Assembly (NCBI GenBank): GCA_017792465.1
Contig: CP051234.1
Location: 3,628,501-3,692,500 of the forward strand
DNA length: 64,000 bases
Reading direction: 5' to 3'
Source of the DNA: Filomicrobium sp.
Lineage (GTDB): Bacteria > Pseudomonadota > Alphaproteobacteria > Rhizobiales > Hyphomicrobiaceae
A model generated the notes under the pieces. It saw nothing but the letters and a program-made list of their open reading frames with translations, made no database searches and was not told the origin of the DNA. The translations under genes and the position numbers were made by a program. Every line of letters begins with the position of its first letter. Position 1 is the first letter of the stretch. Positions 5,593 through 62,801 of the stretch are shown in pieces.

Positions 5593-8500
5593 CTACAGCA
5601 GGACAATGTCGTCATTGAATACGATCCGCTCGACATTAACGAGGACATTTCGTCCATCATTGCCAACGGTGTCGGTGACGATGACAACGCCGGATTGGCC
5701 GTTTGCAATGGTGTAGTCGTCGCGCGAACCGAAGAATCTTACCGTGTCAAACTGGGCGCCGCCGTCGATGCGGTCGTTGCCCCGCTCGTCGAAAATCGTA
5801 TCCCGACCGTTGCCGCCGAAAATACGGTCGTTGCCGGTTCCGCCGAACAGGCGATCGTTACCTGAGCCGCCGTAGACGCGGTCGGCGCCAGCGTCGCCAC
5901 GGACAACGTCATTGCCGCCACCGCCATCAAGCAAGTCGTTGCCAGGACCGCCGAAAATTCTATCGTTGCCGGTGCCGCCGCGCAGGACGTCGTTGCCCAG
6001 CCCGCCGGACATCAGATCGTCGCCGATCCCACCCAGCAGCCGGTCGTCACCATCGCCGTCGCGCAAGATGTCGTTGCCGCTACCGCCGATGAGGAGGTCG
6101 TTGCCCTCTTCACCCAGAAGCCGGTCATTGCCCTCTCCCCCGCGGACGATGTCGTCGCCGTCTCCGCCAGCCACGATATCGTCACCGCCTCCTCCAAAGA
6201 AGGTTTCGTCGCCGTCGGTTCCGACTAGAGTCTCAGGATCATCGGTTCCGACCTGGACATCCTCGACGAGATCGTTGACGTCGATAAGCAGTGATTGGAC
6301 GGCGCTGAGACCGCCATCGTCGGTCACTGAAATGGTGACCTGGTGGCTCGTTTGAGATTCGTAATCGAGGCTTGCGCTGTCGGCGACGATCAATTCGCTG
6401 CCTGAAATGGCAAAGCGACCGTTGGCGTCATCTGTCAGCAGATAGGTGAACGTCATGCTCGGATCGACGTCGGTCGCGTTGAGCTGTGCGACAACAGTGC
6501 CAACGGCAGCGTTTTCATCGACGCTGGCGGAAGCGGGCAGCACGAGTTGGGGCGGATCGTTGACGGGCGCGACCGAGACTGTCCGGGTCTGGCCGGTGAG
6601 GCTGCCGCCGTTGCCGTCGGAGACGTCGTAGGACAGTGTTAGGGTGCCGTTGAAGTTCTGCGCCGGGGTGACGGTGAAGGTACCGTCCATGTTGTCGACG
6701 ACGGAGCCGCTGCTGGAGGTAAGGTTCGCCACCGACAGCGTATCGCCTTCCGGATCGGAGAAGCCCTGCAGCAGATCGGACGCGTTGACGATGAAGGCCA
6801 CGTCTTCGGTGGCGCCTGCCAGGGTTGCCATCGGCGTTCCCGTCGGGTCGTCGTTGACGGGCGCGACCGAGACTGTCCGCGTCTGGCCGGTGAGGCTGCC
6901 GCCGTTGCCGTCCGAGACGTCATAGGTCAGTGTCAGGGTGCCGTTGAAGTTGGTGGCCGGGGTGACGGTGAAGGTGCCGTCCGTGTTGTCGACGACCGAG
7001 CCGCTGCTGGACGTGAGGTTCGCGACCGACAGCGTATCGCCTTCCGGATCGGAGAAGCCTTGCAGCAGGTCGGATGCGTTGACGGTGAAGGCCACGTCTT
7101 CTGTGGCGCCTGCCAGGGTAGCCGTTGGCGCACCCGTCGGGTCGTCGTTGACGGGGGCGACCGAAACCGTCCGGGTCTGGCCGGTGAGGCTGCCGCCGCT
7201 GCCGTCGGAGACATCGTAGGTCAGCGTTAGGGTGCCGTTGAAGTTGGTGGCTGGCGTGACGGTGAAGGTGCCGTCCATGTTGTCGACGACCGAACCGCTG
7301 CTGGAGGTGAGGTTCGTCACCGACAGCGTATCGCCTTCCGGGTCGGAGAAGCCTTGCAGCAAGTCCGACGCGTTGACGGTGAAGGCGACGTCTTCGGTGG
7401 CGCCGGCCAGGGTCGCCGTTGGCGCACCCGTCGGGTCGTCGTTGACGGGGGCGACCGCGACTGTCCGGGTCTGGCCGGCGAGGCTGCCGCCGTTGCCGTC
7501 CGAGACGTCGTAGGTCAGCGTCAGCGTGCCGTTGAAATTGGTGGCTGGGGTGACGGTGAAGGTGCCGTCCATGTTGTCGACGACCGAGCCGCTGCTGGAC
7601 GTGAGGTTCGCCACCGACAGCGTATCGCCTTCGGGATCGGAGAAGCCCTGCAGCAGATCGGACGCGTTGACGGTGAAGGCGACGTCTTCTGAGGCGCCGG
7701 CCAGGGTCGCCGTCGGCGCACCCGTCGGATCGTCGTTGACGGGGGCGACCGCGACTGTCCGCGTCTGGCCGGTGAGGCTGCCGCCGTTGCCGTCGGAGAC
7801 GTCATAGGTCAGTGTCAGCGTGCCGTTAAAGTTCTGCGCGGGTGTGACGGTGAAGGTGCCGTCCATGTTGTCGACGACGGAGCCGCTGCTGGACGTGAGG
7901 TTCGCCACCGACAGCGTGTCGCCTTCGGGATCGGAGAAGCCCTGCAGCAGATCGGACGCGTTGACGGTGAAGGCGACGTCTTCGGTGGCGCCTGGCAGGA
8001 TCGCCGTCGGTGCTCCCGTCGGTTCGTCGTTAACTGGGGCGACCGCGACTGTCCGGGTCTGGCCGGCGAGGCTGCCGCCGTTGCCGTCCGAGACGTCGTA
8101 GGTCAGCGTCAGCGTGCCGTTGAAATTGGTGGCTGGGGTGACGGTGAAGGTGCCGTCCATGTTGTCGACGACGGAGCCGCTGCTGGACGTGAGGTTCGCC
8201 ACCGACAGCGTATCGCCCTCGGGGTCGGAGAAGCCCTGCAGCAGATCGGACGCGTTGACGGTGAAGGCGACGTCCTCGGTGGCTCCGGCCAGGGTCGCTG
8301 TTGGCGCACCCGTCGGGTCGTCGTTGACGGGCGCGACCGAGACTGTCCGGGTCTGGCCGGTGAGGCTGCCGCCGTTGCCGTCGGAGACGTCGTAGGACAG
8401 TGTTAGGGTGCCGTTGAAGTTCTGCGCCGGGGTGACGGTGAAGGTACCGTCCATGTTGTCGACGACGGAGCCGCTGCTGGAGGTAAGGTTCGCCACCGAC

Positions 8501-11500
8501 AGCGTATCGCCTTCCGGATCGGAGAAGCCCTGCAGCAGATCGGACGCGTTGACGATGAAGGCGACGTCTTCGGTAGCGCCGGCCAGCGTTGCCGTCGGCG
8601 CACCCGTCGGGTCATCGTTGACGGGGGCGATGTCGATGGTTGCGGTGTCGGTTGCGGTGTTGCCACCATCGTTGACCTGGAGCGTAAGTGTCGTCGAAGC
8701 GCCTGGCGCATCGGAGCTGTTGAAATACGCAATCGTGCTCGTCGGATCGGTGTTCAGCAGCGCGTTGATCTGCGCGATGGCTCCCGTCAGGATCACCGAT
8801 GCGCTCCCGCTACCGGAAACGCCTGCGTCGCTGGTCCCCGCCGTGACGGTGAGAGTGCCCTCACCGACGCTGATCGTGACTGTCAGGTTGTCACCGTCAG
8901 GATCGCCGACCGATAGCCCGGTATTCTTGAGATCGAGGCTCGTCTGTTCGGTGGCGGCGAAGCTCGTGGGCGTGATCGTTGCCTCGGGGGCAACGTTGAT
9001 GGTTGGCGGGAACGCCGGGTCGAAGTTGTCGGCGGTGAAGGCCGTTGCGGTGGTGTTCTGCAGGATCAGGACGGTGGCGTAATTCGCTCCGTTCGTCGAG
9101 CCATCCCTGTCGACCTGCAGCAGTGTGTCGGTGCCGTCCTGCACCAGCCGCAGATAGCCCGAGCCGAACGGATTGGTGCCGCTGTAGCCGGTGAGATTGC
9201 CCAGAAAGTCGCCGATTGAAATTATGTCGCCACCCGCACCTGCGGCGAAGTCGGTGATGATGGCCTGTGGGCCATAACTGGCGGCATTGGCAGCGTAGAA
9301 GCCGTCGACACTGGAACTTCCAAACCGAATGGTATCGCTGTCGGCTCCCAGCGTCACCGTAGCGGTATCGCCACTGCTAGAGTTCTTGCGCAAAAATATT
9401 GTGTCGCTGCCCGACCCGGCATCGACGGTATCGGCGCGGTTGTTGCCGACGCTATAGATTGTATCATTTCCGGCGCCGCCAATTAGCGTCTCGAAGGGTT
9501 GGGACGACGATGTCGAATTTGACGCTCGTATGGTATCGTTGCCGTCGCCACCGTCGATCGTGCCGCCGCCGCCGCCGCTGTCGATATAATCGTCGCCATC
9601 CTCGCCGTACAGGTTGTCGGCGCCGGACTCGCCGTAGATATTATCGTTCTCCGTGCCGCCGTAGATGGTATCGTCGCCGAACCCGCCATAAAGACCATCG
9701 GCCCCTTCCCGGCCATAGATCGTGTCGCTGCCGGAATCTCCTCTTACGACGTCGTTGCCAGCCAGCGCATCGATGATGTCGTCGCCAAGCGTCCCATCGA
9801 TCTGCGTTGCATTCCGGTCATCACCCGACGTGCCCGTGATCGTCTGGCCGGGTGGGTTGCTGCCGTCGGTCGGCCAGGCCGGATCGAAGTTGTCGGCGGT
9901 GAAGGCTGTTGCGGTGGTGTTCTGCAGGATCAGGACGGTGGCGTAATTCGCTCCGTTCGTCGAGCCATCCCTGTCGACCTGCAGCAGTGTGTCGGTGCCA
10001 TCCTGCACCAGCCGCAGATAGCCCGAGCCGAACGGATTGGTGCCGCTGTAGCCGGTGAGGTTGCCCAGAAAGTCGCCGATTGAAATTATGTCGCCACCCG
10101 CACCTGCGGCGAAGTCGGTGATGATGGCCTGTGGGCCATAACTGGCGGCATTGGCAGCGTAGAAGCCGTCGACACTGGAACTTCCAAACCGAATGGTATC
10201 GCTGTCGGCTCCCAGCGTCACCGTAGCGGTATCGCCACTGCTAGAGTTCTTGCGCAAAAATATTGTGTCGCTGCCCGACCCGGCATCGACGGTATCGGCG
10301 CGGTTGTTGCCGACGCTATAGATTGTATCATTTCCGGCGCCGCCAATTAGCGTCTCGAAGGGTTGGGACGACGATGTCGAATTTGACGCTCGTATGGTAT
10401 CGTTGCCGTCGCCACCGTCGATCGTGCCGCCGCCGCCGCCGCTGTCGATATAATCGTCGCCATCCTCGCCGTACAGGTTGTCGGCGCCGGACTCGCCGTA
10501 GATATTATCGTTCTCCGTGCCGCCGTAGATGGTATCGTCGCCGAACCCGCCATATAGAACGTCGGCCCCTTCCTGGCCATAAATCGTGTCGCTGCCGGAA
10601 TCTCCTCTTACGACGTCGTTGCCAGCCAGCGCATCGATGATGTCGTCGCCAAGCGTCCCATCGATCTGCGTTGCATTCCGGTCATCACCCGACGTGCCCG
10701 TGATCGTCTGGCCGGGTGGGTTGCTGCCGTCGGTCGGCCAGGCCGGATCGAAGTTGTCGGCGGTGAAGGCTGTTGCGGTGGTGTTCTGCAGGATCAGGAC
10801 GGTGGCGTAATTCGCTCCGTTCGTCGAGCCATCCCTGTCGACCTGCAGCAGTGTGTCGGTGCCATCCTGCACCAGCCGCAGATAGCCCGAGCCGAACGGA
10901 TTGGTGCCGCTGTAGCCGGTGAGATTGCCCAGAAAGTCGCCGATTGAAATTATGTCGCCACCCGCACCTGCGGCGAAGTCGGTGATGATGGCCTGTGGGC
11001 CATAACTGGCGGCATTGGCAGCGTAGAAGCCGTCGACACTGGAACTTCCAAACCGAATGGTATCGCTGTCGGCTCCCAGCGTCACCGTAGCGGTATCGCC
11101 ACTGCTAGAGTTCTTGCGCAAAAATATTGTGTCGCTGCCCGACCCGGCATCGACGGTATCGGCGCGGTTGTTGCCGACGCTATAGATTGTATCATTTCCG
11201 GCGCCGCCAATTAGCGTCTCGAAGGGTTGGGACGACGATGTCGAATTTGACGCTCGTATGGTATCGTTGCCGTCGCCACCGTCGATCGTGCCGCCGCCGC
11301 CGCCGCTGTCGATATAATCGTCGCCATCCTCGCCGTACAGGTTGTCGGCGCCGGACTCGCCGTAGATATTATCGTTCTCCGTGCCGCCGTAGATGGTATC
11401 GTCGCCGAACCCGCCATATAGAACGTCGGCCCCTTCCTGGCCATAAATCGTGTCGCTGCCGGCATCGCCGAGGACCGTGTCGTTGCCCGCCAGCGCATCG

Positions 11501-11871
11501 ATGATGTCGTCGCCGATCGTCCCATCGATCTGCGTCGCATTCCGGTCATCACCTGACGTGCCCGTGATCTCGTTGGCGTCCGTCACTTGTATGGTGATGA
11601 CTTCTGAATAGGTGTTGGTGGTCGAATCCGTGACCTGGACGGTCAGATTGTAAGTTGGCGTCGTCTCGAAATCGAGAACCGCGCCTTCCTTGAGACGGAT
11701 GGTGTCGCCGACGATTTCGAAGAGCGCCGATGCCGGCATGTCGGTGAGCGCGTAGGTGAACGTGTCACCGTTGTCCGCATCCACGGCCGACAAGGTGGCG
11801 ACCAACGCGCCCGGACCTGCCGATTCACTGATGCTTCCGCCGGTGACCAGAATGTCAGTTGGTGATGCCAT
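5593..11871 (-). CDS. Giant secreted cadherin-like / RTX repeat protein
   Basis: About 2092 residues from ATG 11871, chosen because GAGGGA lies just before it and MASPTDILVTGGSISESA begins the first cadherin-like domain; the frame opens further to 11994. Layout: cadherin-like domain (1-100); three 288-residue blocks (about 105-950), each with calcium-binding nonapeptides of GGxGxDxxY/I type plus a beta-rich tail; a VCBS-like domain; seven 98-residue Ig/cadherin-like repeats (about 1080-1765) containing FSDPEGDTLSVANLTSS; another cadherin domain with DENAAVGTVVAQLNATDVD; a classic RTX block (about 1885-2040); and a C-terminal region ending ERIVFNDDIVLL, as in type I secretion substrates. There is no Sec signal. 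It is probably an acidic calcium-binding adhesin or biofilm protein. No secretion genes lie nearby. Confidence 0.9.
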   Translation of the reverse strand: MASPTDILVTGGSISESAGPGALVATLSAVDADNGDTFTYALTDMPASALFEIVGDTIRLKEGAVLDFETTPTYNLTVQVTDSTTNTYSEVITIQVTDANEITGTSGDDRNATQIDGTIGDDIIDALAGNDTVLGDAGSDTIYGQEGADVLYGGFGDDTIYGGTENDNIYGESGADNLYGEDGDDYIDSGGGGGTIDGGDGNDTIRASNSTSSSQPFETLIGGAGNDTIYSVGNNRADTVDAGSGSDTIFLRKNSSSGDTATVTLGADSDTIRFGSSSVDGFYAANAASYGPQAIITDFAAGAGGDIISIGDFLGNLTGYSGTNPFGSGYLRLVQDGTDTLLQVDRDGSTNGANYATVLILQNTTATAFTADNFDPAWPTDGSNPPGQTITGTSGDDRNATQIDGTLGDDIIDALAGNDVVRGDSGSDTIYGQEGADVLYGGFGDDTIYGGTENDNIYGESGADNLYGEDGDDYIDSGGGGGTIDGGDGNDTIRASNSTSSSQPFETLIGGAGNDTIYSVGNNRADTVDAGSGSDTIFLRKNSSSGDTATVTLGADSDTIRFGSSSVDGFYAANAASYGPQAIITDFAAGAGGDIISIGDFLGNLTGYSGTNPFGSGYLRLVQDGTDTLLQVDRDGSTNGANYATVLILQNTTATAFTADNFDPAWPTDGSNPPGQTITGTSGDDRNATQIDGTLGDDIIDALAGNDVVRGDSGSDTIYGREGADGLYGGFGDDTIYGGTENDNIYGESGADNLYGEDGDDYIDSGGGGGTIDGGDGNDTIRASNSTSSSQPFETLIGGAGNDTIYSVGNNRADTVDAGSGSDTIFLRKNSSSGDTATVTLGADSDTIRFGSSSVDGFYAANAASYGPQAIITDFAAGAGGDIISIGDFLGNLTGYSGTNPFGSGYLRLVQDGTDTLLQVDRDGSTNGANYATVLILQNTTATAFTADNFDPAFPPTINVAPEATITPTSFAATEQTSLDLKNTGLSVGDPDGDNLTVTISVGEGTLTVTAGTSDAGVSGSGSASVILTGAIAQINALLNTDPTSTIAYFNSSDAPGASTTLTLQVNDGGNTATDTATIDIAPVNDDPTGAPTATLAGATEDVAFIVNASDLLQGFSDPEGDTLSVANLTSSSGSVVDNMDGTFTVTPAQNFNGTLTLSYDVSDGNGGSLTGQTRTVSVAPVNDDPTGAPTATLAGATEDVAFTVNASDLLQGFSDPEGDTLSVANLTSSSGSVVDNMDGTFTVTPATNFNGTLTLTYDVSDGNGGSLAGQTRTVAVAPVNDEPTGAPTAILPGATEDVAFTVNASDLLQGFSDPEGDTLSVANLTSSSGSVVDNMDGTFTVTPAQNFNGTLTLTYDVSDGNGGSLTGQTRTVAVAPVNDDPTGAPTATLAGASEDVAFTVNASDLLQGFSDPEGDTLSVANLTSSSGSVVDNMDGTFTVTPATNFNGTLTLTYDVSDGNGGSLAGQTRTVAVAPVNDDPTGAPTATLAGATEDVAFTVNASDLLQGFSDPEGDTLSVTNLTSSSGSVVDNMDGTFTVTPATNFNGTLTLTYDVSDGSGGSLTGQTRTVSVAPVNDDPTGAPTATLAGATEDVAFTVNASDLLQGFSDPEGDTLSVANLTSSSGSVVDNTDGTFTVTPATNFNGTLTLTYDVSDGNGGSLTGQTRTVSVAPVNDDPTGTPMATLAGATEDVAFIVNASDLLQGFSDPEGDTLSVANLTSSSGSVVDNMDGTFTVTPAQNFNGTLTLSYDVSDGNGGSLTGQTRTVSVAPVNDPPQLVLPASASVDENAAVGTVVAQLNATDVDPSMTFTYLLTDDANGRFAISGSELIVADSASLDYESQTSHQVTISVTDDGGLSAVQSLLIDVNDLVEDVQVGTDDPETLVGTDGDETFFGGGGDDIVAGGDGDDIVRGGEGNDRLLGEEGNDLLIGGSGNDILRDGDGDDRLLGGIGDDLMSGGLGNDVLRGGTGNDRIFGGPGNDLLDGGGGNDVVRGDAGADRVYGGSGNDRLFGGTGNDRIFGGNGRDTIFDERGNDRIDGGAQFDTVRFFGSRDDYTIANGQSGVVIVTDTVGNDGRNVLVNVERIVFNDDIVLL
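6568..8625. repeat. Seven tandem 294-bp repeats (98-residue Ig/cadherin-like units)
   Basis: Landmarks such as the NFNGTLTL and VVDNMDGTFTVTP codons recur every 294 bases exactly seven times with very few changes at DNA level. Units differ at a handful of positions (for example NFNG preceded by AQ or AT; one unit carries PGATED rather than AGATED). Such DNA-level identity in a protein repeat implies recent duplication or ongoing gene conversion. Confidence 0.92.
9021..11568. repeat. Three near-identical tandem 864-bp repeats (288-residue RTX blocks)
   Basis: The string CGAAGTTGTCGGCGG begins copies at 9021, 9885 and 10749, a period of exactly 864 bases, and long stretches between copies are identical. 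Each unit encodes one calcium-binding nonapeptide block followed by a beta-rich segment ending FTADNFDPAWP. The last copy ends near 11568. A few differences, such as QEGADVLYGG versus REGADGLYGG, separate copies. Confidence 0.93.
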
Positions 11872-12948
11872 ATCCCTCAGAAGCTCCAATAACGATTTTG
11901 CTGGAAAAAGAATTGCGCTCTCCGTCGGCCTCGTTGCCGAGGGGCCAGGAGACATTGAACTGCGCGAAGGCAAGTTCGGGTTGGTCGCCGTCAAATCGCG
12001 CTAAATCATCGCCGCAACCTGCAGTTGGATTTTTGCTGCGAGTTTGGCTGCAGTCGGCACAGGTGCCGTTGCGCTGATGGTTTGATGGAAGCCTGTCGGG
12101 CTGGCTGTCGGAAAAATGGCCTGTCGCGTCGCTATGCGAAACCGTATCGCCCGCCGCTACGGCCTTGTAGTCCGCGCGGCCGCCCCCCGCATCGGCCTGG
12201 AGAATGAGCCTGCCGGGAGTCGTAATGTTACCGAAATCGATTATCGAAGGAACCGCTGACATTACGCACACCGAAACTAACAACTACAAAAATTACGCTC
12301 GTGCGCCGGCGGCTGATGCCGGCGAAAATTCGCAAAGCTCAGTTGATTCCTGGCGTGCAGACAGTTAGGTGCCCAATCGTCCAAAAATATTCGTATGGCG
12401 ACCGGCATTTTCAGTGCGCATCGCTTGCCTGCTTCAGAACCCCCAGAGCCCTGTATTATCTAAACTATAACTCAATCGTGTGTCGGCGGATCATTCAAGA
12501 GAAAAATGCATCGACCGACCGAGAGCCCAACCTACTTTCCGGAAACGCGCCGTAGATGAGTGATCCACAAGACAAAGCTCCGATGTTTTCTTTAGAGTAT
12601 TCAGAAAAACATTCTCCACATCACCCAAATGGGGGATTGAAGAATGTTCTCGAACTCGTGAATGGCGCTGAGCCTCCCCCAACAAAGTGGTCCGAATTCG
12701 AGTTATGGATTTGATCCCGAGGAGGATGTGGATATGGGCAAGAGGCGCAGGCCTGAAGAAGATCGTTGCGCAGCTGCGTCAGGTCACGGTGGGCACAAGC
12801 CATATTGCGATAACCTCGCGCGGCCCCTAACGCGGTGACCTGAAGAGCTGATATTTGTTTGGGTCGCAAGAAGCATGTTGACGCGATTTGCGCTTCAATT
12901 CGTGCCTCATCGTATTTGTTCCGGCTTGGCATTGGCAGGTTTGACAGG
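11872..12948. other. Long intergenic region upstream of RTX gene
   Basis: About 1.08 kb with no convincing gene apart from the transposase remnant at 12669-12790. A minus-strand frame from 12283 to 11855 (142 codons) overlaps the RTX start out of frame; its composition is unlike a known domain and it was not called. Perfect arms CGCCGGC/GCCGGCG (12304-12324) form a small hairpin. The RTX promoter should lie here on the minus strand. Confidence 0.4.
12669..12790 (+). pseudogene. IS3-type transposase OrfA remnant
   Basis: From ATG 12734, preceded by GAGGAGG, the codons read MGKRRRPEE. After one extra base the next frame reads IVAQLRQVTV, giving the well-known IS3-family OrfA opening (GKRRxxPEEIVAKLRQV). 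Similarity stops abruptly after about 20 residues. Upstream, TGAGCCTCCCCCAACAAAGT at 12669 looks like a transposon end. Frameshift plus truncation means it is a dead fragment. Confidence 0.55.
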
Positions 12949-55316: not shown

Positions 55317-58300
55317 TTAGAAGGCTTCTGTTGGTGCCGCACTGCTTTGTGGCGCGGCGTCTCTTTCGTTGACGATCCGCTCAAGTGGTTTGCGTCCGAA
55401 CTTCCAAAAAAGAAGGGGCGTTAACACAGCGTCGATGAGGGTGGCCGATACGAGGCCGCCGAAGATGGTTACGGCCAGCGGGTAAAGGATCTCGCGACCC
55501 GGCTCGTCACCGGCAGCAATGAGCGGCACAAGCGCAAGACCTGCGGAGACCGCTGTCATGAGAACCGGTGTCATGCGTTCCAGGCTGCCTCGGAGGATGA
55601 GGGGCCGCCCGAAGGTCTCGCCTTCGTAGAGCGCAAGATTGATGTAATGGCTGACCTTGAGGATCCCGTTCCGGGCTGAAATTCCCGCGAGTGTGATGAA
55701 GCCAATCAGGCTGGCGACCGAGAACGGTAATCCGGCGATCCATAACGCGGACACACTGCCAATGAGAGCGAGCGGGATATTCGTGAGCACGATGAGCGCG
55801 AGTATGGCTGAGCCATAGCGGCTGTAGAGCACCATGAAGATCAGCGCCAACGAAATCAGGGATAGCAAACCGATCGTGCGGGTGGCTTCTTCCTGGGCCT
55901 GGAATTGCCCTTCCAGCCGCACGACATAGCCGGGCGGCAGTTCGGCGGTGTCAATGATGCTGCGGATGTCAGCGATGATCGCTGCCATGTCTCTGATGCC
56001 GTCGCCGTTTGCCGAAACGATGATCCGGCGCTGTTGGTTTTCCCGCAGAATCTGGTTTGGCCCTTCGGCTTCCTTGATTGTTGCAAGCCTTTTTAACGGC
56101 AAGTAGCCATCGGGCGTCGCGACAAGGGCTTCGCCCAGTCCTGCTGTCGAGCGGTCTTGATCGTCAAGCCGCATGACAACGTCGAAGCGCCGGTTACCTT
56201 CGATGATTTGCGACACGGTCCGCCCATTCGTCAGGTCTGCGAGCGTGGCGGTCAGAGCAGGCGGCGTGATGCCATAAAGGGCTGCCCTGTCGTAATCCGG
56301 AACCACTTGCAGCTGTGGAATGAGGACCTGCTTTTCGACTTGGAGATCGACGACACCGGAGACTGTCTGAAGGCGTGTTTGCATGTCGGCTGCAAGCGTG
56401 CGCAAGCGATCCAAGTCTTCGCCAAAGATCTTGAGGGCGATCTGAGCGCGCACACCGGACAGCATATGATCCAGACGGTGGGCGATCGGTTGTCCGATCC
56501 CGATCGCTGCCGGCAGCATCGAGAGTTTTTCTCGAATGGCCGCGTAGACGTCTTCGCGAGACTTGCCGGTCTCCTTGAGGTCGATATCGAGTTCGGAGAC
56601 GTGGACGCCTTCGGCATGTTCATCGAGTTCCGCGCGTCCGGTGCGGCGGCCAACACTTTCGACGTCGTCGATGTCCATGATCAAGCGTTCGGCAATGCGT
56701 CCGAGCCGGTCGGACTCCGCCAGCGAAATTCCAGGGTTGTAGACGACTGAAACGAGGATGGTTCCTTCGTTAAAGGCTGGAAGGAACGCGCGCGGCAATT
56801 GCATTGCGAGCACGCCGGCGAGAATCACACCGATCGAGATTGCAGCTGCGACCGGTCGCCAATGATCCAGGCTCCAATTCAAAAGCCCTCGATAGCCGCC
56901 TTTCAAGGCCCGCACGACGGCTGTATCCTCTTCGGGCTTTTTCGGCACTTTCAAAAGGTAGAAGCAAAGGGCCGGTGTGAGCGTGACCGAGGTGATGAGA
57001 CTGGCGAGAATTGAGACAATGTAGGCAAGCCCGAGTGGGCGGAAGAGCTGACCTTCCAGGCCGCCCATCGCGAACAACGGGATGAACACCAAGATGATGA
57101 TCGCCGTCGCATAAACGATGCTGGAGCGGACCTCGTGCGAGGCGTTGAGCACAACCAGGAGCTTGTCGCGGGGGTGCCGCGCCTCGGCGTTGAGCCTGAG
57201 CCGGCGCAAGACGTTCTCGACTCCGACAACGGCGTCGTCGACTAATTCGCCAATGGCAATCGCAATTCCGCCGAGCGTCATCGTGTTGATCGACAGCCCA
57301 AAGGCGTAGAAAACCAACACCGTGATGAAAATCGACATCGGGATGGCGGTTAGCGAGATGAAGGTTGCGCGCCAATTCATCAGGAACAAGATGAGGATGA
57401 AGGCAACGACGACGGCCGCTTCGACGAGGACGCTTTTTACGTTCGCGATTGATGTCTCGATGAATGTTGCCTGGCGGAACTGAATACGATCTGCGGTCAC
57501 GCCATCGGGCAAGGTGCGCTGGATCTTCGCCAGTTGGGCCTCAATCTCGTTGGTGACTGTGACTGTGTCGGCCTGCGGTTGTTTTTGCACTCCGATAATG
57601 ACCGCGGGCTCGCCCATGAAACCGGCGTCGCCGCGCTTGACCCTGGGGGCGAAATTCACTTTGGCGACCTGGCGTAACAGGATGGGCTGGCCTTTGCGTG
57701 TGACGACCACAAGGTTCCTGAGGTCATCAAGGCGTGTGGTGCGACCGATGTTCCGGATCAAATATTCGCGTGCGTGTTGATCGATAAAACCGCCACCGGC
57801 ATTGGTGCCGAATTGGGCGATCGCGGCTTCGATCATCTTTGGTGTCACATTGAGCCGCTGCATGGCGATCAGGTCCGGGCTGACCCGGTACTGGCGCACT
57901 TCGCCGCCGATCGGGATCACTTGTGCCACGCCTGACACGGTCAGGATTTGCGGGCGGATTACGAAATCCGCGATCTCACGCAAGTCCATCGCAGAGACGG
58001 TCTTGCCGTTGATGGCAATCAGCATGATCTCGCCCATGATCGACGAAATCGGTCCCATTTGCGGTTGGATGCCGGTGGGCAATTGCTCCCCGACAATCGC
58101 CAAGCGTTCCGTCACGAGCTGACGGTTGCGATAGATATCCGTGCCCCAGTCGAATTCGACATAGATGATCGACAGGCCGACGCTTGAGACCGAGCGCAGG
58201 CGAATGACGCCTGGCATGCCGTTCAGGGCAGTTTCGAGAGGATAGGTGACGAGTTGCTCGACCTCTTGCGGCGCGTAGCCGTCGGCCTCGGTCAGAAGCG

Positions 58301-58442
58301 TGACGGTCGGGCGGTTGAGATCGGGGAAAACGTCGACTGGAAGCCGGGGCAAAACATAGGCCCCGTAGGCCGCCAAAAGGAGAGAGGCAACGATGACGAA
58401 CATGCGCTGCGACAGGCTGATGGCCACAAGTGTTTTGAACAT
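55317..58442 (-). CDS. Heavy-metal RND efflux pump, CzcA/CusA family
   Basis: A 1041-residue inner-membrane proton antiporter with the expected two halves, each with six helices and a large periplasmic loop. Landmarks are [40 protein letters not shown], a fourth helix reading [20 protein letters not shown], and in the second half [20 protein letters not shown] with [15 protein letters not shown]. The fourth-helix aspartates are present but the motif differs from both CzcA (zinc/cobalt) and CusA (copper/silver), so the metal is unclear. Encoded 11 bases after the adaptor gene. No CzcC-type outer-membrane gene is in the operon. Confidence 0.93.
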
Positions 58443-58453
58443 GGATGCCCCCG

Positions 58454-60229
58454 TCAGCGGATCTGATTGACCAAAGCCGCGCCGCGTTCGATGATCTGAT
58501 CGCCAGCTTGAAGCCCGCCTGTCACGTGGACCCGATCGACATCGATGGCGTCGAAGCGCACCGGCTTGGGCTGGTAGCGTTCCGGTTCGAGACGCTTGAA
58601 CACAACCATCTGCCCATTCGGGGCCTGTGCGATCGCGGACCGCGGAACGATCAGTCCTTTGATCGGTGCGCCGGTCTCGACGAGCACCTTGATCGGGCTG
58701 CCGATGTGCAGGGTTTTGTCCGGGTTCTCGATTTTGAATTGGAAGCGCACGGCTTGCTGCTGGAGTGCGCGGCTGCGGCCGACGAAGTCCAGTGTGTATT
58801 GCTCGCCGTCATCGTTGCGCGCCTCGACCTTAGTGCCTTCGACCGAGATGCCAGGATCATAGGAAATCGCTTCGACCCAGAGGCTTGAGGGATCGAGGAT
58901 GTGGAGAATGGTTCGTCCGCTTTCGACGACTTGTCCGGAAACGGCTTGCACCTCGGCGATTACGCCATCGACTGGTGCGGTTAGAGCTTCGGGAGCGTTG
59001 CGCGCGTTCTTGAGTTCCGCATACCGCTTCTCAAGCCCTTCGAGTTCGATCTTCAGGTCTTCGAGGTTTGCGCGGCTCGCGACATCGCGATCGACGAGGC
59101 GTTGTTGACGTCGGATTCGGGCGTTGATGAGCGTGATCTGCTGGCGTAAGTCGCCGGCTGTTTGGCGAACGTCGCTGGCGTCGATCGGAGCGAAAGCGGG
59201 TTCGACATAGGCGAGTATTTCGCCGGCCTTGACCTTGCGCCCAAGCGTTGGCAGCCCTCCATCCGTCGGTTTTATGCGTCCGCCGATGGTGCTTTGGACT
59301 AGCCCCGCCCTATTGGGATCTGCGATCACGCGACCGATCAAGCGGGTTGTCGCGCGTGTTGTCTCGGGTTGGAGTATGCGAGAGCGAATGTTCAACAAGC
59401 GCTGGGTGGGTTTGGGCAGGAACAAAACACCATCCGACATTCGCCGGGGTGCATCGCCGGACGTTCGCGCCGAGCCGCCGCCATCGCCATGATCGTGACC
59501 CGGACCGGCCCAGGCGAAACCGGCCCCAAGGACGGCAACGAGTCCGAAAACCGCAAGGGTTACGCCCGATTTGCTGCGCATAAGCGCTCCAACGAGGAGC
59601 CCTATTATGAGCCCCAGTCCGGCTAGAAACGCCCCGTTCGAAAATTTCCGCTCGATCGCCGAAGGCAGCACGCCAGCTTGTTTCAGGGTATCGGCAATGG
59701 GCTTAGGGAGTGCGGAGTGATCCGCAGCTCCATCGCCGGCGTGATGCACCGCATGGTCGTGATCATAGTGATCGTCATGTTGATCATGGGCTTGCGCATG
59801 TGGGATCTTCAACGCCCCGACCAGGAGATCGCTGTTGCCTGCATGCGTGATCGTGGCAATCAGCTCGATCTCGCCATCACCCTTGAATGCTTGCGCTTCA
59901 ACTTTGTAGGTGCCGTCGGCTGTGGGTTGCGCTTGTTCTGTTTGCCCATCGACGATCAACTCGATTGCAGCATCTCGGACCGGCTCGGTATCGGCGCGAC
60001 GATCAAGGTAGAGCGTCAGCTCTCCGTCTTTCAGGATGCCGACCAGTTCATAGTCTTGCGATTCTGCATAAAATCGAGGGCTGGATGGCCCATCGGCCCG
60101 GTTCGTTTTAGCGTGATCGTGGCCATGATCATGGCCGGGACCAGCAAGCGCAGATGGCACGACGTTAGCGGCTAGCAATGCAATAGCCGCAAGCACTGCC
60201 GGCACGACCGGCAACAGGCGTAGCTTCAT
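58454..60229 (-). CDS. RND periplasmic adaptor (HlyD type) with extra histidine-rich sensor part
   Basis: A 591-residue protein, about 200 longer than common adaptors. Layout: signal peptide (1-29); His-rich [12 protein letters not shown]; an Ig-like domain to about 150; another His-rich stretch ([12 protein letters not shown]); hydrophobic segments about 200-240 ([16 protein letters not shown] and [19 protein letters not shown]); a third His-rich motif [11 protein letters not shown]; then the HlyD core with [20 protein letters not shown], coiled coil [20 protein letters not shown], and [20 protein letters not shown]. The extension may bind metal. It pairs with the RND pump encoded next. Confidence 0.88.
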
Positions 60230-60259
60230 TTTTGAGATAACCTCTGACAGCGACGTGGA

Positions 60260-60279
60260 GCGCAGTCGATCGACTGCGC
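60260..60279. promoter_or_regulatory. Perfect 20-bp palindrome upstream of adaptor gene
   Basis: GCGCAGTCGATCGACTGCGC is fully self-complementary without a spacer. It sits in the 63-base gap between the CzcI-like gene and the adaptor gene. It could be a repressor site or an mRNA hairpin that separates expression of the two genes. Confidence 0.55.
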
Positions 60280-60292
60280 ACGATAATCGGCT

Positions 60293-60754
60293 TCAGAGGG
60301 CGGTGCGTGGAGGTCTCAGCAAAGTCGCGGCAGGCAGGCCCAGTATCGGCGTGGCCGCGAAGGCTTGAAGGCGCTTAAGCGTTAAGGGGAAGCTGATCGG
60401 AGCCCCTTCCGCTTCCAGAAATGCATGACAGCAGTGGACATGACCCTCGCAGTCGTCGCACTGGCCCTGCGCGTCACCGTCATTGGTGTGAGAAGAATGG
60501 TTGTCGTCCGCCACGGAATTGCTGTCCGTGTCGGTGAACGCGTGAGTATGAATTTTTGCGGTATGGCTATGATCGCCGTGCGACTCGGCCTCATCGCCGC
60601 TGGTCTCCTGGGACAGATCGAGCCCGGAGAAAGCTGGGATATAGAAGTCGTCAGCAAGACAGACCGTCGATAAGTTCAATGAGAGCACAAACAGGAGCGC
60701 CACCACGCAACGCGCGGCCCGTGCAACTCTCAGTTTTCCCATACCTATCAGCAT
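60293..60754 (-). CDS. CzcI-like histidine-rich exported protein
   Basis: A 153-residue protein; signal peptide about LRVARAARCVVALLFVLSLN ending LA (start at 60754 or 60742). The mature part carries His clusters (ESHGDHSHTAKIHTHAF), a cysteine-rich CDDCEGHVHCCHAF and ends ATLLRPPRTAL; the RPPR ending is common in CzcI-like/DUF2946-type proteins at the head of czc operons. It probably binds or senses the metal in the periplasm. First gene of the minus-strand operon that continues with adaptor, pump and two small proteins. Confidence 0.7.
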   Translation of the reverse strand: MLIGMGKLRVARAARCVVALLFVLSLNLSTVCLADDFYIPAFSGLDLSQETSGDEAESHGDHSHTAKIHTHAFTDTDSNSVADDNHSSHTNDGDAQGQCDDCEGHVHCCHAFLEAEGAPISFPLTLKRLQAFAATPILGLPAATLLRPPRTAL

Positions 60755-61218
60755 TCGGTTCCCGCAAAAGATACTGGGAAGAGGTAACTCATTCGCGACC
60801 GGGAAGGCAAGGGGCTGTGCTGATAGCGGTTACCTGTTCCCGTTGAAGGCGGCTCCGGTGATGGGTATTTGCAACGCATGTCCTGTGCAACTTGGGGGCA
60901 CCTCGAACTGCACCGACGACCGGCTGCGAAAGCAGTTGCCATTGAAAACGAGACGCGAATGCATTATCTCCCTTTGCGAAATCAATTGTGAACTTGGCGG
61001 GTAATCCGTGATCCAGAACCCCAACATCGTCGTCTCATCTTCGCGTCAGCGGTCTGCCGTTTCTGCGGCTGAGATTTATTATCTGGAAACGTAACCGAGC
61101 CTCTCATCCGGGAGGTCCGACTGGCCTCCCTTTGCGCAAATGCTGCCCTGGTTGGTCATGTCGGACTGCCGGGGCTTTTTGTTGTTGAACCGGCTTCGGC
61201 CGAACTTTGGAGAAAGAC

Positions 61219-61323
61219 ATGCGCGAGCTTGTTTGCTTCCCAATCGCTGCCTTTGCGTTTGCCGGCGAACCCGGCACAGCGTCGATGACGTGCGCGAAGA
61301 ACGCGTGGTGGCTGGAGACATAA
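61219..61323 (+). CDS. Candidate 34-codon leader peptide
   Basis: ATG at 61219 follows TTTGGAGAAAGAC, a good ribosome site. The peptide reads MRELVCFPIAAFAFAGEPGT and ends NAWWLET before TAA 61321-61323. It overlaps the proposed antiterminator strand at its first codons and is followed directly by hairpin 61324-61349. No homologue is recognised. Confidence 0.4.
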   Translation: MRELVCFPIAAFAFAGEPGTASMTCAKNAWWLET

Positions 61324-61349
61324 CTCCCCGGTGAAACTTCACCCGGGAG
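61324..61349 (+). promoter_or_regulatory. Leader hairpin after the small ORF
   Basis: CTCCCCGGTGAA (61324-61335) pairs with TTCACCCGGGAG (61338-61349) at 11 of 12 positions. It begins one base after the stop codon of the small ORF, so a ribosome finishing the ORF would cover it. Confidence 0.55.
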
Positions 61350-61377
61350 AACGACACCTCTCGGGCAAGACACAATC

Positions 61378-61416
61378 AAGCTCGCGAGGTCTATCGACTT
61401 CGCGAGCTTTCTTTTT
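61378..61416 (+). terminator. Intrinsic terminator inside the EF-Tu-like leader
   Basis: AAGCTCGCGA (61378-61387) pairs perfectly with TCGCGAGCTT (61400-61409), followed by TCTTTTT. It lies 121 bases before the EF-Tu-like start and would end transcripts arriving from upstream unless blocked. Confidence 0.75.
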
Positions 61417-61478
61417 GGGCCGACGGCAGGAGCCGTTTGGACCCTTCACCCCTTTGGCGCGCCAATGCCAACGGCTGG

Positions 61479-61505
61479 CCTGTCCGGCTTAGCTAACCGG
61501 ACAGG
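61479..61505 (+). promoter_or_regulatory. Hairpin just before the EF-Tu-like ribosome site
   Basis: CCTGTCCGG (61479-61487) pairs perfectly with CCGGACAGG (61497-61505) around the loop CTTAGCTAA. It ends 18 bases before the GAAGGAG site. Confidence 0.5.
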
Positions 61506-61520
61506 TCGGCAGCTTCAAAA

Positions 61521-61541
61521 ATGAAGGAGATTGAAGCATGA
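61521..61541 (+). promoter_or_regulatory. Six-codon upstream ORF overlapping the EF-Tu-like start
   Basis: ATGAAGGAGATTGAAGCATGA reads MKEIEA and its TGA shares bases with the EF-Tu-like ATG (61538). The ribosome site for the main gene lies inside this mini-ORF, so its translation would interfere with or couple to the main start. Confidence 0.4.
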
Positions 61542-62731
61542 CCGACAAACTGCATGTGAACGTCGGAACCATCGGTCACGTCGACCATGGCAAGACCACG
61601 CTGACGGCTGCCATCACGCAGGTGCAGGCGGCGCGCGTCGGAGGCACCGGTCTGGCGCTCAACCAGATCGACAATGCCAAGGAAGAAAGCGTGCGCGGAA
61701 TCACGATCAACACCTCGCACGTCGAGTATGAATCCGAGACGCGCCACTATGCGCACATCGACTGTCCGGGACACGCTGACTATGTGAAAAACATGATCAC
61801 GGGTGCTTCCCAGATGGACGGTGCGATCCTGCTTGTCGACGGCACGGAAGGGGCCGCCCGCCAAACGATCGAGCACATCCTGCTTGCGCGTCAGGTCGGG
61901 GTTCAAAGCATCGTCGTGTTCGTCAACAAGATGGACATGATCGCTGAAGCCGACCGAGCCGACATGAAGGAACTGATCGAGATGGAGATCGGCGCAATGC
62001 TGGCTTCGCAAGGCTACGAGGACGTTGCGTTTATTTTCGGCAGCGCTCTGCGTGCCTTGCAAGCCGCTGAGAAAGGAGATGTCGAAGGCGCCGACACTGC
62101 GTGCATCGTCGAACTGATCGAAGCATTGGACACTCGCATTGCGGACCCGGTCCGCGATTACGATAGTCCGTTCATGATGCCGATCGAAGGCGTGCACACC
62201 ATCCCCGGCCGGGGGACGGTGGTCAGTGGGCGTGTCGAGCGCGGTGTCATCAAGGTGGGTGATGCCGTGGAGATCGTCGGCCTGACGAACTCCGACGATC
62301 AGCAGGTCATCGTGACCGGTACGCAGGCTTTCCGGAAGAACATTTCCGAAGCTCGCGCCGGCATGAACGTTGGCCTGCTTCTTCGAGGTTTGAAGCGCGA
62401 GGACGTTCAGCGCGGTCAAGTGCTGAGCGCCCCTGGTGTGATCAAGCCTTACTCGAAAGGCAGCGCGCAGATCTTCGTTCTGGGGAAGGACGAGGGCGGA
62501 CGCCACACGCCATTTGGCAGTGGCTACCAGCCTCAGTTCTTCTTCGGTACGACGGATGTGACCGGCGTCATCACCGTTCTTGGTGAGGACGGTCTGGTTC
62601 AGCCCGGCGATCAGGCTGAGGTCGAATTCGACCTCAAGAAGCCTGTCGGCATCGAAGAAGGCATCCGCTTTGCCATCCGCGAGGGTGGCAAGACGGTGGG
62701 TGCCGGCTTTGTAAGGAGCGTCCACTCCTGA
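61538..62731 (+). CDS. Divergent EF-Tu paralogue (translation elongation factor Tu-like GTPase)
   Basis: A 397-residue GTPase of full EF-Tu length. The G motifs are intact: GHVDHGKT (G1), [12 protein letters not shown] (G2 region), [12 protein letters not shown] (G3), NKMD (G4) and GSAL (G5). Domains 2 and 3 are recognisable ([55 protein letters not shown] and [13 protein letters not shown]). It differs from housekeeping alphaproteobacterial EF-Tu: a short N-terminus, GTEGAARQT for the usual PMPQT segment, a shortened Tyr160 region and several domain 3 changes. It is not next to fusA or ribosomal-protein genes. Alone between its own leader and terminator, it is likely a specialised copy. Confidence 0.88.
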
Positions 62732-62752
62732 AAGGCTGAAACTGCGCAAAGT

Positions 62753-62801
62753 CCCCGAGCCAGGCCAGTGGTTTTTGCTGGCATTGGCTCGGGGATCTTT
62801 T
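62753..62801 (+). terminator. Intrinsic terminator of the EF-Tu-like gene
   Basis: CCCCGAGCCA (62753-62762) with GGCCAG pairs with CTGGC and TGGCTCGGGG (62785-62794), followed by ATCTTTT. It is 22 bases after the stop codon. Confidence 0.85.

Follow-up and report, generated by a model that had tools for sequence, protein, structure and literature searches.

Why would a bacterial genome with two canonical EF-Tu genes carry an EF-Tu gene of a second lineage, and what determines whether that gene is read? The question arises at positions 61008-62731 of the DNA analysed here, a 64,000-nucleotide stretch of a Filomicrobium sp. chromosome that is referred to as the window. The favoured reading, to which a probability of roughly 0.7 is assigned, is that this region forms a transcription-attenuated second-lineage EF-Tu gene with aromatic regulatory codons, as modelled from the sequences and predicted folds of three bacterial loci: the window and the leader loci of two orthologues (L118 and L153). 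The initial annotation had proposed attenuation of a spare EF-Tu from one leader ORF, a hairpin and a terminator; it did not mention module 1, the paired Tyr and Trp codons, segments B and C, or the phage affinity of the protein. The region is laid out as follows.

61008-61094, + strand: leader ORF1, with a GTG start, a weak ribosome-binding site (RBS) and the peptide (M)IQNPNIVVSSSRQRSAVSAAEIYYLET; its TAT TAT pair ends three codons before the stop
61097-61130, + strand: segments A (GAGCCTCTC), B (GGGAGG) and C (GGCCTCCC) of module 1, placed by folding energies
61145-61180, + strand: terminator 1, arms 61145-61151 and 61169-61175 followed by TTTTT (-19.1 kcal/mol; L118 counterpart -24.0 kcal/mol)
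61209-61212, + strand: Shine-Dalgarno GGAG of ORF2, six bases before the ATG; the same GGAGAAAGA occurs in L118
61219-61323, + strand: leader ORF2, ATG start, 34 codons, peptide MRELVCFPIAAFAFAGEPGTASMTCAKNAWWLET; its TGG TGG pair ends three codons before the stop
61222-61231, + strand: complement to 61377-61386 at the start of ORF2, not kept in L118
61324-61335, + strand: segment A of module 2 (A:B -16.3 kcal/mol; L118 -15.7 kcal/mol)
61340-61349, + strand: segment B of module 2, pairing with A or with C (B:C -15.6 kcal/mol; L118 -17.5 kcal/mol)
61356-61366, + strand: segment C of module 2, pairing with B or with D (C:D -16.9 kcal/mol; L118 -8.5 kcal/mol)
61378-61391, + strand: segment D of module 2, the left arm of terminator 2
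61396-61416, + strand: segment E of module 2 (61396-61409), the right arm of terminator 2, with its U run (D:E -26.2 kcal/mol; L118 -20.4 kcal/mol)
61454-61480, + strand: conserved box TTGGCGCGCCAATGCCAACGGCTGGCC, a hairpin 3' of the terminators (alignment of the window, L118 and L153; fold)
61474-61510, + strand: strong hairpin upstream of the EF-Tu gene (folds)
61512-61537, + strand: weak hairpin GCTTCAA...TTGAAGC with the gene's Shine-Dalgarno in its loop (fold); similar in L153, not in L118
61538-62731, + strand: EF-Tu paralogue of apparent phage type, 397 aa (translation, profile match, trees)
62753-62801, + strand: terminator-like inverted repeat 3' of the gene, CCCCGAGCC...GGCTCGGGG then TCTTTT (read in the sequence)

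Terminator 1 and the inverted repeat after the gene fall outside an automatic terminator listing with a loop limit of 8. Adjoining the leader on the minus strand are heavy-metal efflux-type genes (55317-60754), recognised by eye from their translations as an RND pump (55317-58442), an adaptor (58454-60229) and a small His-rich secreted protein (60293-60754). Elsewhere in the window, 5593-11994 of the minus strand hold a repetitive ORF of 2133 aa with near-identical long blocks and, by eye, cadherin-like and calcium-binding-type repeats.

Positions 61538-62731 encode a full-length EF-Tu, with a TIGR00485 score of 530.7 bits against a cut-off of 522.4, in agreement with the initial annotation. 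The protein keeps T61, H84, K89 and N90 (alignment, E. coli mature numbering). Its putative role, judged from family membership, is the delivery of aminoacyl-tRNA in elongation. Each of the two canonical EF-Tu copies of the 4.47-Mb genome is 57% identical to the paralogue, and in a 68-row tree the genome's canonical EF-Tu falls among alphaproteobacterial EF-Tus.

Two close orthologues of the paralogue, and only two, are found in the genome draws. The first (81% identity), of leader locus L118, is from genome G310, which belongs to another family of the same order, shows 6% contamination and has its EF-Tu paralogue gene close to a contig end. The second (74% identity), of leader locus L153, is from G510, a genome of another order in the same class. 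As the canonical EF-Tus of relatives reach scores of about 1e-138 (or worse) against the paralogue, the limits for orthologues were tightened to 1e-141 in the first order draw and 1e-144 in the others. Matches at these limits occur in 2 of 397 genomes of the order and 2 of 385 of the class, each count including the source genome; in 1 of 310 in a second order draw (G310) and 1 of 320 in a second class draw (G510); and in 1 of 398 of the phylum and 1 of 103 of the source genome's own family, both being the source genome itself. In the family of G310 the count is 1 of 11 genomes, and in the family and the order of G510 it is 1 of 5, with the same five genomes in both. The draws overlap, and the larger ones scored the best few candidates per genome. 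In a scan of named genomes, the 80 loci listed reach at most 59% identity to the paralogue, and collections of 1513 plasmid and 94 phage records hold no place of at least 60% identity. Mobile-element neighbours were sought among ten neighbouring proteins of the bacterial loci, and these proteins belong to ordinary metabolic, transport or unknown families; no tRNAs occur in L152, L161, L162 or the window.

The affinities of the protein lie with phages. In the 68-row tree the three bacterial paralogues group within a clade with five EF-Tus of IMG/VR contigs (support 100/99). A 47-row tree, which omits the partial L189 and the 349-aa L181, places them nested among 21 EF-Tus of viral origin in a clade supported at 100/100. 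The inner forks of the midpoint-rooted 47-row tree are supported at 99/95 for L119/L120 as sister and at 83/66 to 94/88 for the others. The EF-Tu gene of L120 is flanked by one gene for a gp59-type helicase loader and another for a gp32-type single-strand binding protein. L120, at least, is thus a T4-like phage; the others are viral by the label of the collection. The EF-Tu gene of L122 neighbours RtcB, and tRNA genes are near those of L119, L121, L122 and L123, with none in L120. From the sequences, the paralogue looks like a phage-type protein captured by bacteria. Huge phages encode EF-G, Tu and Ts, according to PMC7162821; the window paralogue resembles the EF-Tus of such phages in grouping with phage proteins, and differs in residing on bacterial chromosomes and in having gained a leader. 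A second clade of viral-contig EF-Tus (L129, L134, L136, L137, L142, L143, L184 and L185) appears in both trees, distinct from canonical EF-Tu and from the clade of the window paralogue. The EF-Tu of a Streptomyces plasmid (L160) groups with enterobacterial EF-Tus in two trees.

The leader looks like a bacterial addition to this gene, as none of 25 phage loci has a leader module within the scanned region of up to 620 nt upstream of EF-Tu. The scan recovers the known modules of the window, L118 and L153 as positive controls; three of the 25 phage loci (L183-L185) fall outside the clade of the paralogue. A search of viral contigs with the conserved box matched five contigs, none with an EF-Tu match.

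The structures described by the initial annotation are present in the window. The 34-codon ORF stands at 61219-61323 with its ATG and a GGAG six bases upstream, the stem of the hairpin past its stop begins at 61324 directly after the TAA, and the intrinsic terminator, 14 pairs followed by TCTTTTT, spans 61378-61409 and precedes the EF-Tu gene with a U run. Folding, the check that had been suggested, finds the leader more stable than dinucleotide shuffles (z -4.08 for 61200-61420 and z -4.64 for 61080-61560). The succession of ORF, post-stop hairpin and terminator recurs in L118, of another family, and one ORF-terminator module recurs in L153, of another order, which speaks for attenuation of a spare EF-Tu. 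L118 repeats the arrangement of the window, with two modules of ORF plus terminator one after the other. Its ORF1 peptide ends in AAAAYYQDS (with MIRIETMIASGKRHHAGDAAAAYYQDS at the same place) against AAEIYYLET in the window and is followed by a terminator; its ORF2 peptide is MREKTYGSNAQAESLGNSWWFFR against MRELV...KNAWWLET, with a hairpin after the stop and then a terminator. L153 has one clear module, with the peptide MTKAYRLKEIREVMARAVAAERYWFDF and a terminator. By its RBS, which is kept in L118, ORF2 is predicted to be translatable; the RBS of ORF1 is weak.

Adjacent aromatic residues lie within the last eight residues of all five leader peptides (two in the window, two in L118, one in L153), which do not amount to five independent events because the modules of the window and L118 are homologous. 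Among ORFs of 20-40 codons, the same feature occurs in 13 of 447 in the window, a count that includes both window leaders, and in 2 of 62, 9 of 97 and 0 of 99 in L152, L161 and L162, respectively. A search for copies of the leader elsewhere in genomes G000, G310 and G510 returned only the homologous leaders and short chance matches, and no Rfam family reaches its gathering score in the window (in L118, two weak sub-threshold matches only).

Between the terminators and the gene, the window, L118 and L153 share the box TTGGCGCGCC(A/G)ATGCCA. The box and hairpins of 61454-61537, with the Shine-Dalgarno in a loop in the window and L153, may form a further, translational layer of control, as judged from the folds. 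At L153:1420-1500 the ATGCCA of the box opens a stop-free frame that runs into the EF-Tu coding sequence (ORF 1420-2679), unlike in the window and L118. A module scan also flagged in L153, at about 1153-1196, a further short ORF that ends in ...ADFYEAHK, with Phe-Tyr. Its stop codon TGA shares bases with the start codon of the main leader ORF (ATGA), which suggests translational coupling.

The conserved device is, as predicted from sequence, a classical one, with aromatic codons just before the stop and mutually exclusive hairpins A:B, B:C, C:D and D:E, all of which form in module 2 of the window and of L118. When these two modules are compared, a single two-sided change and a single one-sided one are seen in A:B (five outer pairs), and the same holds for B:C (eight pairs). 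Pairs 1-8 of D:E are invariant, and the window has a single C:D mismatch where L118 has two. Switching was modelled at equilibrium with a ribosome that hides all RNA up to a point 12 nt 3' of where its A-site codon begins, and was compared with shuffles (n = 300) that randomise the stretch from the stop to D. With half of E made, the modelled probability that D is sequestered in the window is 0.71 at Trp-Trp versus 0.03 at the stop, a difference reached by none of 300 shuffles and holding at ribosome offsets of 10-16, not 9; for a transcript ending before E, it falls from 0.71 to 0.58, as reached by 37 of 300. In L118, D sequestration falls from 0.67 to 0.14 in the transcript ending before E (2 of 300 shuffles) and from 0.67 to 0.36 with half of E made (24 of 300). 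The model switch is thus clear on one of two metrics in each module 2. Once E is complete, the terminator prevails in both modules at each of the ribosome positions shown (0.93-0.97), and the switch, if real, would therefore be kinetic.

A different switch was proposed initially, in which the start of ORF2 would pair with the left arm of the terminator and a ribosome on the start codon would free the terminator. The complement itself is real: bases 61222-61230 (CGCGAGCTT) can pair without mismatch with 61378-61386, and one further pair brings the perfect match to 10 nt (61222-61231 with 61377-61386, -19.1 kcal/mol), a length reached against the left-arm region by 9 of 2000 dinucleotide shuffles of ORF2 in a post hoc test. 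When the leaders of the orthologues are compared, as had been advised, the ORF is kept and the complement is not; ORF2 of L118 begins ATGCGCGAAAAAACC, and its longest complement is 6 nt at -9.6 kcal/mol. The partners are 150 nt apart, the pairing leaves the conserved aromatic codons unused, and the modelled probability that D is sequestered with no ribosome present (0.58-0.65) is no higher than at Trp-Trp. The logic of a stalled or absent ribosome switching on the gene is also inconsistent, in that a ribosome parked on the ORF start favours termination and an absent one favours read-through. This pairing was rejected as the main switch, a part that it is highly improbable to play; in the window, the complement may add to antitermination when ORF2 is untranslated.

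Hairpins A:B and B:C can also be placed in the remaining modules. The energies of A:B and B:C are -10.0 and -13.5 kcal/mol in module 1 of the window, -6.5 and -13.1 kcal/mol in module 1 of L118, and -11.0 and -12.1 kcal/mol in the L153 module. In the equilibrium model, none of these three switches with a ribosome at the stop. In the window, terminator 1 is disfavoured wherever the ribosome is placed (0.01-0.13) because an antiterminator that contains C (61116-61167) has an energy of -23.3 kcal/mol. That three of five modules fail the equilibrium test would suit an account in which the short ORFs are due to chance and the hairpins are ordinary terminators that insulate a weakly expressed foreign gene. 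Such an account is very unlikely: it has to face the recurrence of ORF, aromatic pair, hairpin and terminator in this order across family and order, the advantage of module 2 over its shuffles, and the position of the terminators inside the leader and not before its ORFs.

For the attenuator with aromatic regulatory codons, the following course of events is proposed. RNA polymerase would start upstream of ORF1. Where Tyr-Tyr (ORF1) and Trp-Trp (ORF2) are read freely, the ribosome at the stop would cover segment A, leaving B to pair with C and D free to form the D:E terminator. Where the ribosome stalls at the aromatic codons, A would pair with B, and C, being free, would hold D, so that polymerase would read on into the EF-Tu gene. 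Since the leader peptides end in paired Tyr or Trp codons, stalling at these codons is probably what turns the spare EF-Tu on. The protein would then be produced at times of slow aromatic-codon decoding, whether charged tRNA or working EF-Tu ternary complex is scarce.

The purpose of an attenuated EF-Tu can be inferred in part from residues that set the paralogue apart. In a comparison of 110 canonical EF-Tus with the three bacterial and 21 phage members (E. coli mature numbering), D216 is D in 110/110 canonical proteins and G in 3/3 bacterial and 10/21 phage members, F218 is F in 107/110 canonical proteins and H in 3/3 and 13/21, and T228 is T in 110/110 canonical proteins and 21/21 phage members and S in 3/3 bacterial members. 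Thus, three of six positions of the amino-acid pocket are altered (D216G, F218H and T228S), and H66, E215 and N273 are unchanged; the enrichment of changes in the pocket is marginal, with P values of 0.055, 0.13 and 0.047 for three limits of conservation. Outside the pocket, R333 is R in 110/110 canonical proteins and G in 3/3 bacterial and 21/21 phage members, Y160 is Q, Q and H in the three bacterial paralogues, and T334 is V in L153 only. R333 and Y160 are presumably sites of pulvomycin and kirromycin resistance, and a literature search for these assignments found no paper. The other positions tested that presumably belong to kirromycin (L120, Q124, I298, G316, Q329, A375 and E378) and to GE2270 (V226, G257 and G275) are unchanged.

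One purpose, compatible with the aromatic-codon attenuator, is general sensing of elongation stress. The aromatic codons would merely be slow ones, a drop in EF-Tu activity through a drug, toxin or phage attack would stall the leader ribosomes, and the replacement switched on would be an EF-Tu that the attacker does not recognise. The leader aromatics vary (Y, W, F) and do not specify one amino acid, the changes at R333 and Y160 fit an evaded attacker, and uORFs that sense translation stress are known, as PMC13236596 and PMC12218461 describe. Against this stand the unchanged positions that presumably belong to kirromycin and GE2270, and the expectation that a block of EF-Tu would hold back translation of the spare factor's own mRNA as well. 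The idea is plausible, if somewhat short of an even chance.

A second purpose is more specific, in that the captured phage EF-Tu would have a pocket remodelled for aromatic or bulky modified-aromatic aminoacyl-tRNAs and be induced by stalling at Tyr, Trp or Phe codons. It is suggested because the leader codons and the altered pocket both indicate the same kind of residue, and on the sequences it is unlikely. Its nearest parallels are engineered. As described in PMC6386890, Park et al. randomised these six pocket positions to obtain EF-Sep, which has D217G and T229S in Met = 1 numbering; EF-pY has D217G, and pocket-mutant EF-Tus, including D217A, accept bulky or phosphorylated residues. The natural D216G and T228S (mature numbering) equal the two EF-Sep changes, and D216G is the change shared with EF-pY. 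Unlike EF-Sep, EF-pY and the D217A mutant in that source, the paralogue keeps H66, E215 and N273, has H at F218 and is known from its sequence.

If the attenuator is real, a core translation factor and not an amino-acid enzyme would be under classical codon-reading attenuation, and the cell would therefore keep a second, phage-derived EF-Tu for decoding failure. The paralogue would also be the natural equivalent of EF-Tus whose pockets have been altered by engineering and an instance of an elongation factor passing from phage to host, and would suggest, in a directly testable way, why large phages have an EF-Tu of their own.

Leader-peptide attenuation and uORF sensors of translation stress are already known. 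Leader-peptide transcription attenuators control the trp, his and phe operons of Proteobacteria. Mycobacterial ilvB1 has one as well, and in whiB7/wblC, of which whiB7 is a regulator, translation of a uORF sets premature termination (PMC13236596, in part). In the alphaproteobacterium S. meliloti, a uORF acts as stress sensor for a DUF1127 gene, presumably through Rho-dependent termination (PMC12218461, in part). The leader studied here shares with these sensors the setting of premature termination by uORF translation; by contrast, neither of them controls an elongation factor. The rpsL-leader (PMC2965389, in part) is likewise a predicted attenuation element, and the operon behind it (rpsL-rpsG-fusA-tufA) has an EF-Tu gene as its last member, but this is a ribosomal-protein operon with a canonical EF-Tu, and the part in question describes no aromatic leader peptide. 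In the open-licence PMC literature, no report was found in which an aromatic leader peptide controls an EF-Tu gene. The closest resemblance is to the attenuators of amino-acid operons, with which the EF-Tu leader shares a short ORF, paired regulatory codons just before the stop, an intrinsic terminator and, in the model, a ribosome that masks the antiterminator when it is at the stop. It differs from them in that the gene controlled encodes EF-Tu and not an enzyme for the amino acid sensed, and in having two tandem modules with different aromatic pairs.
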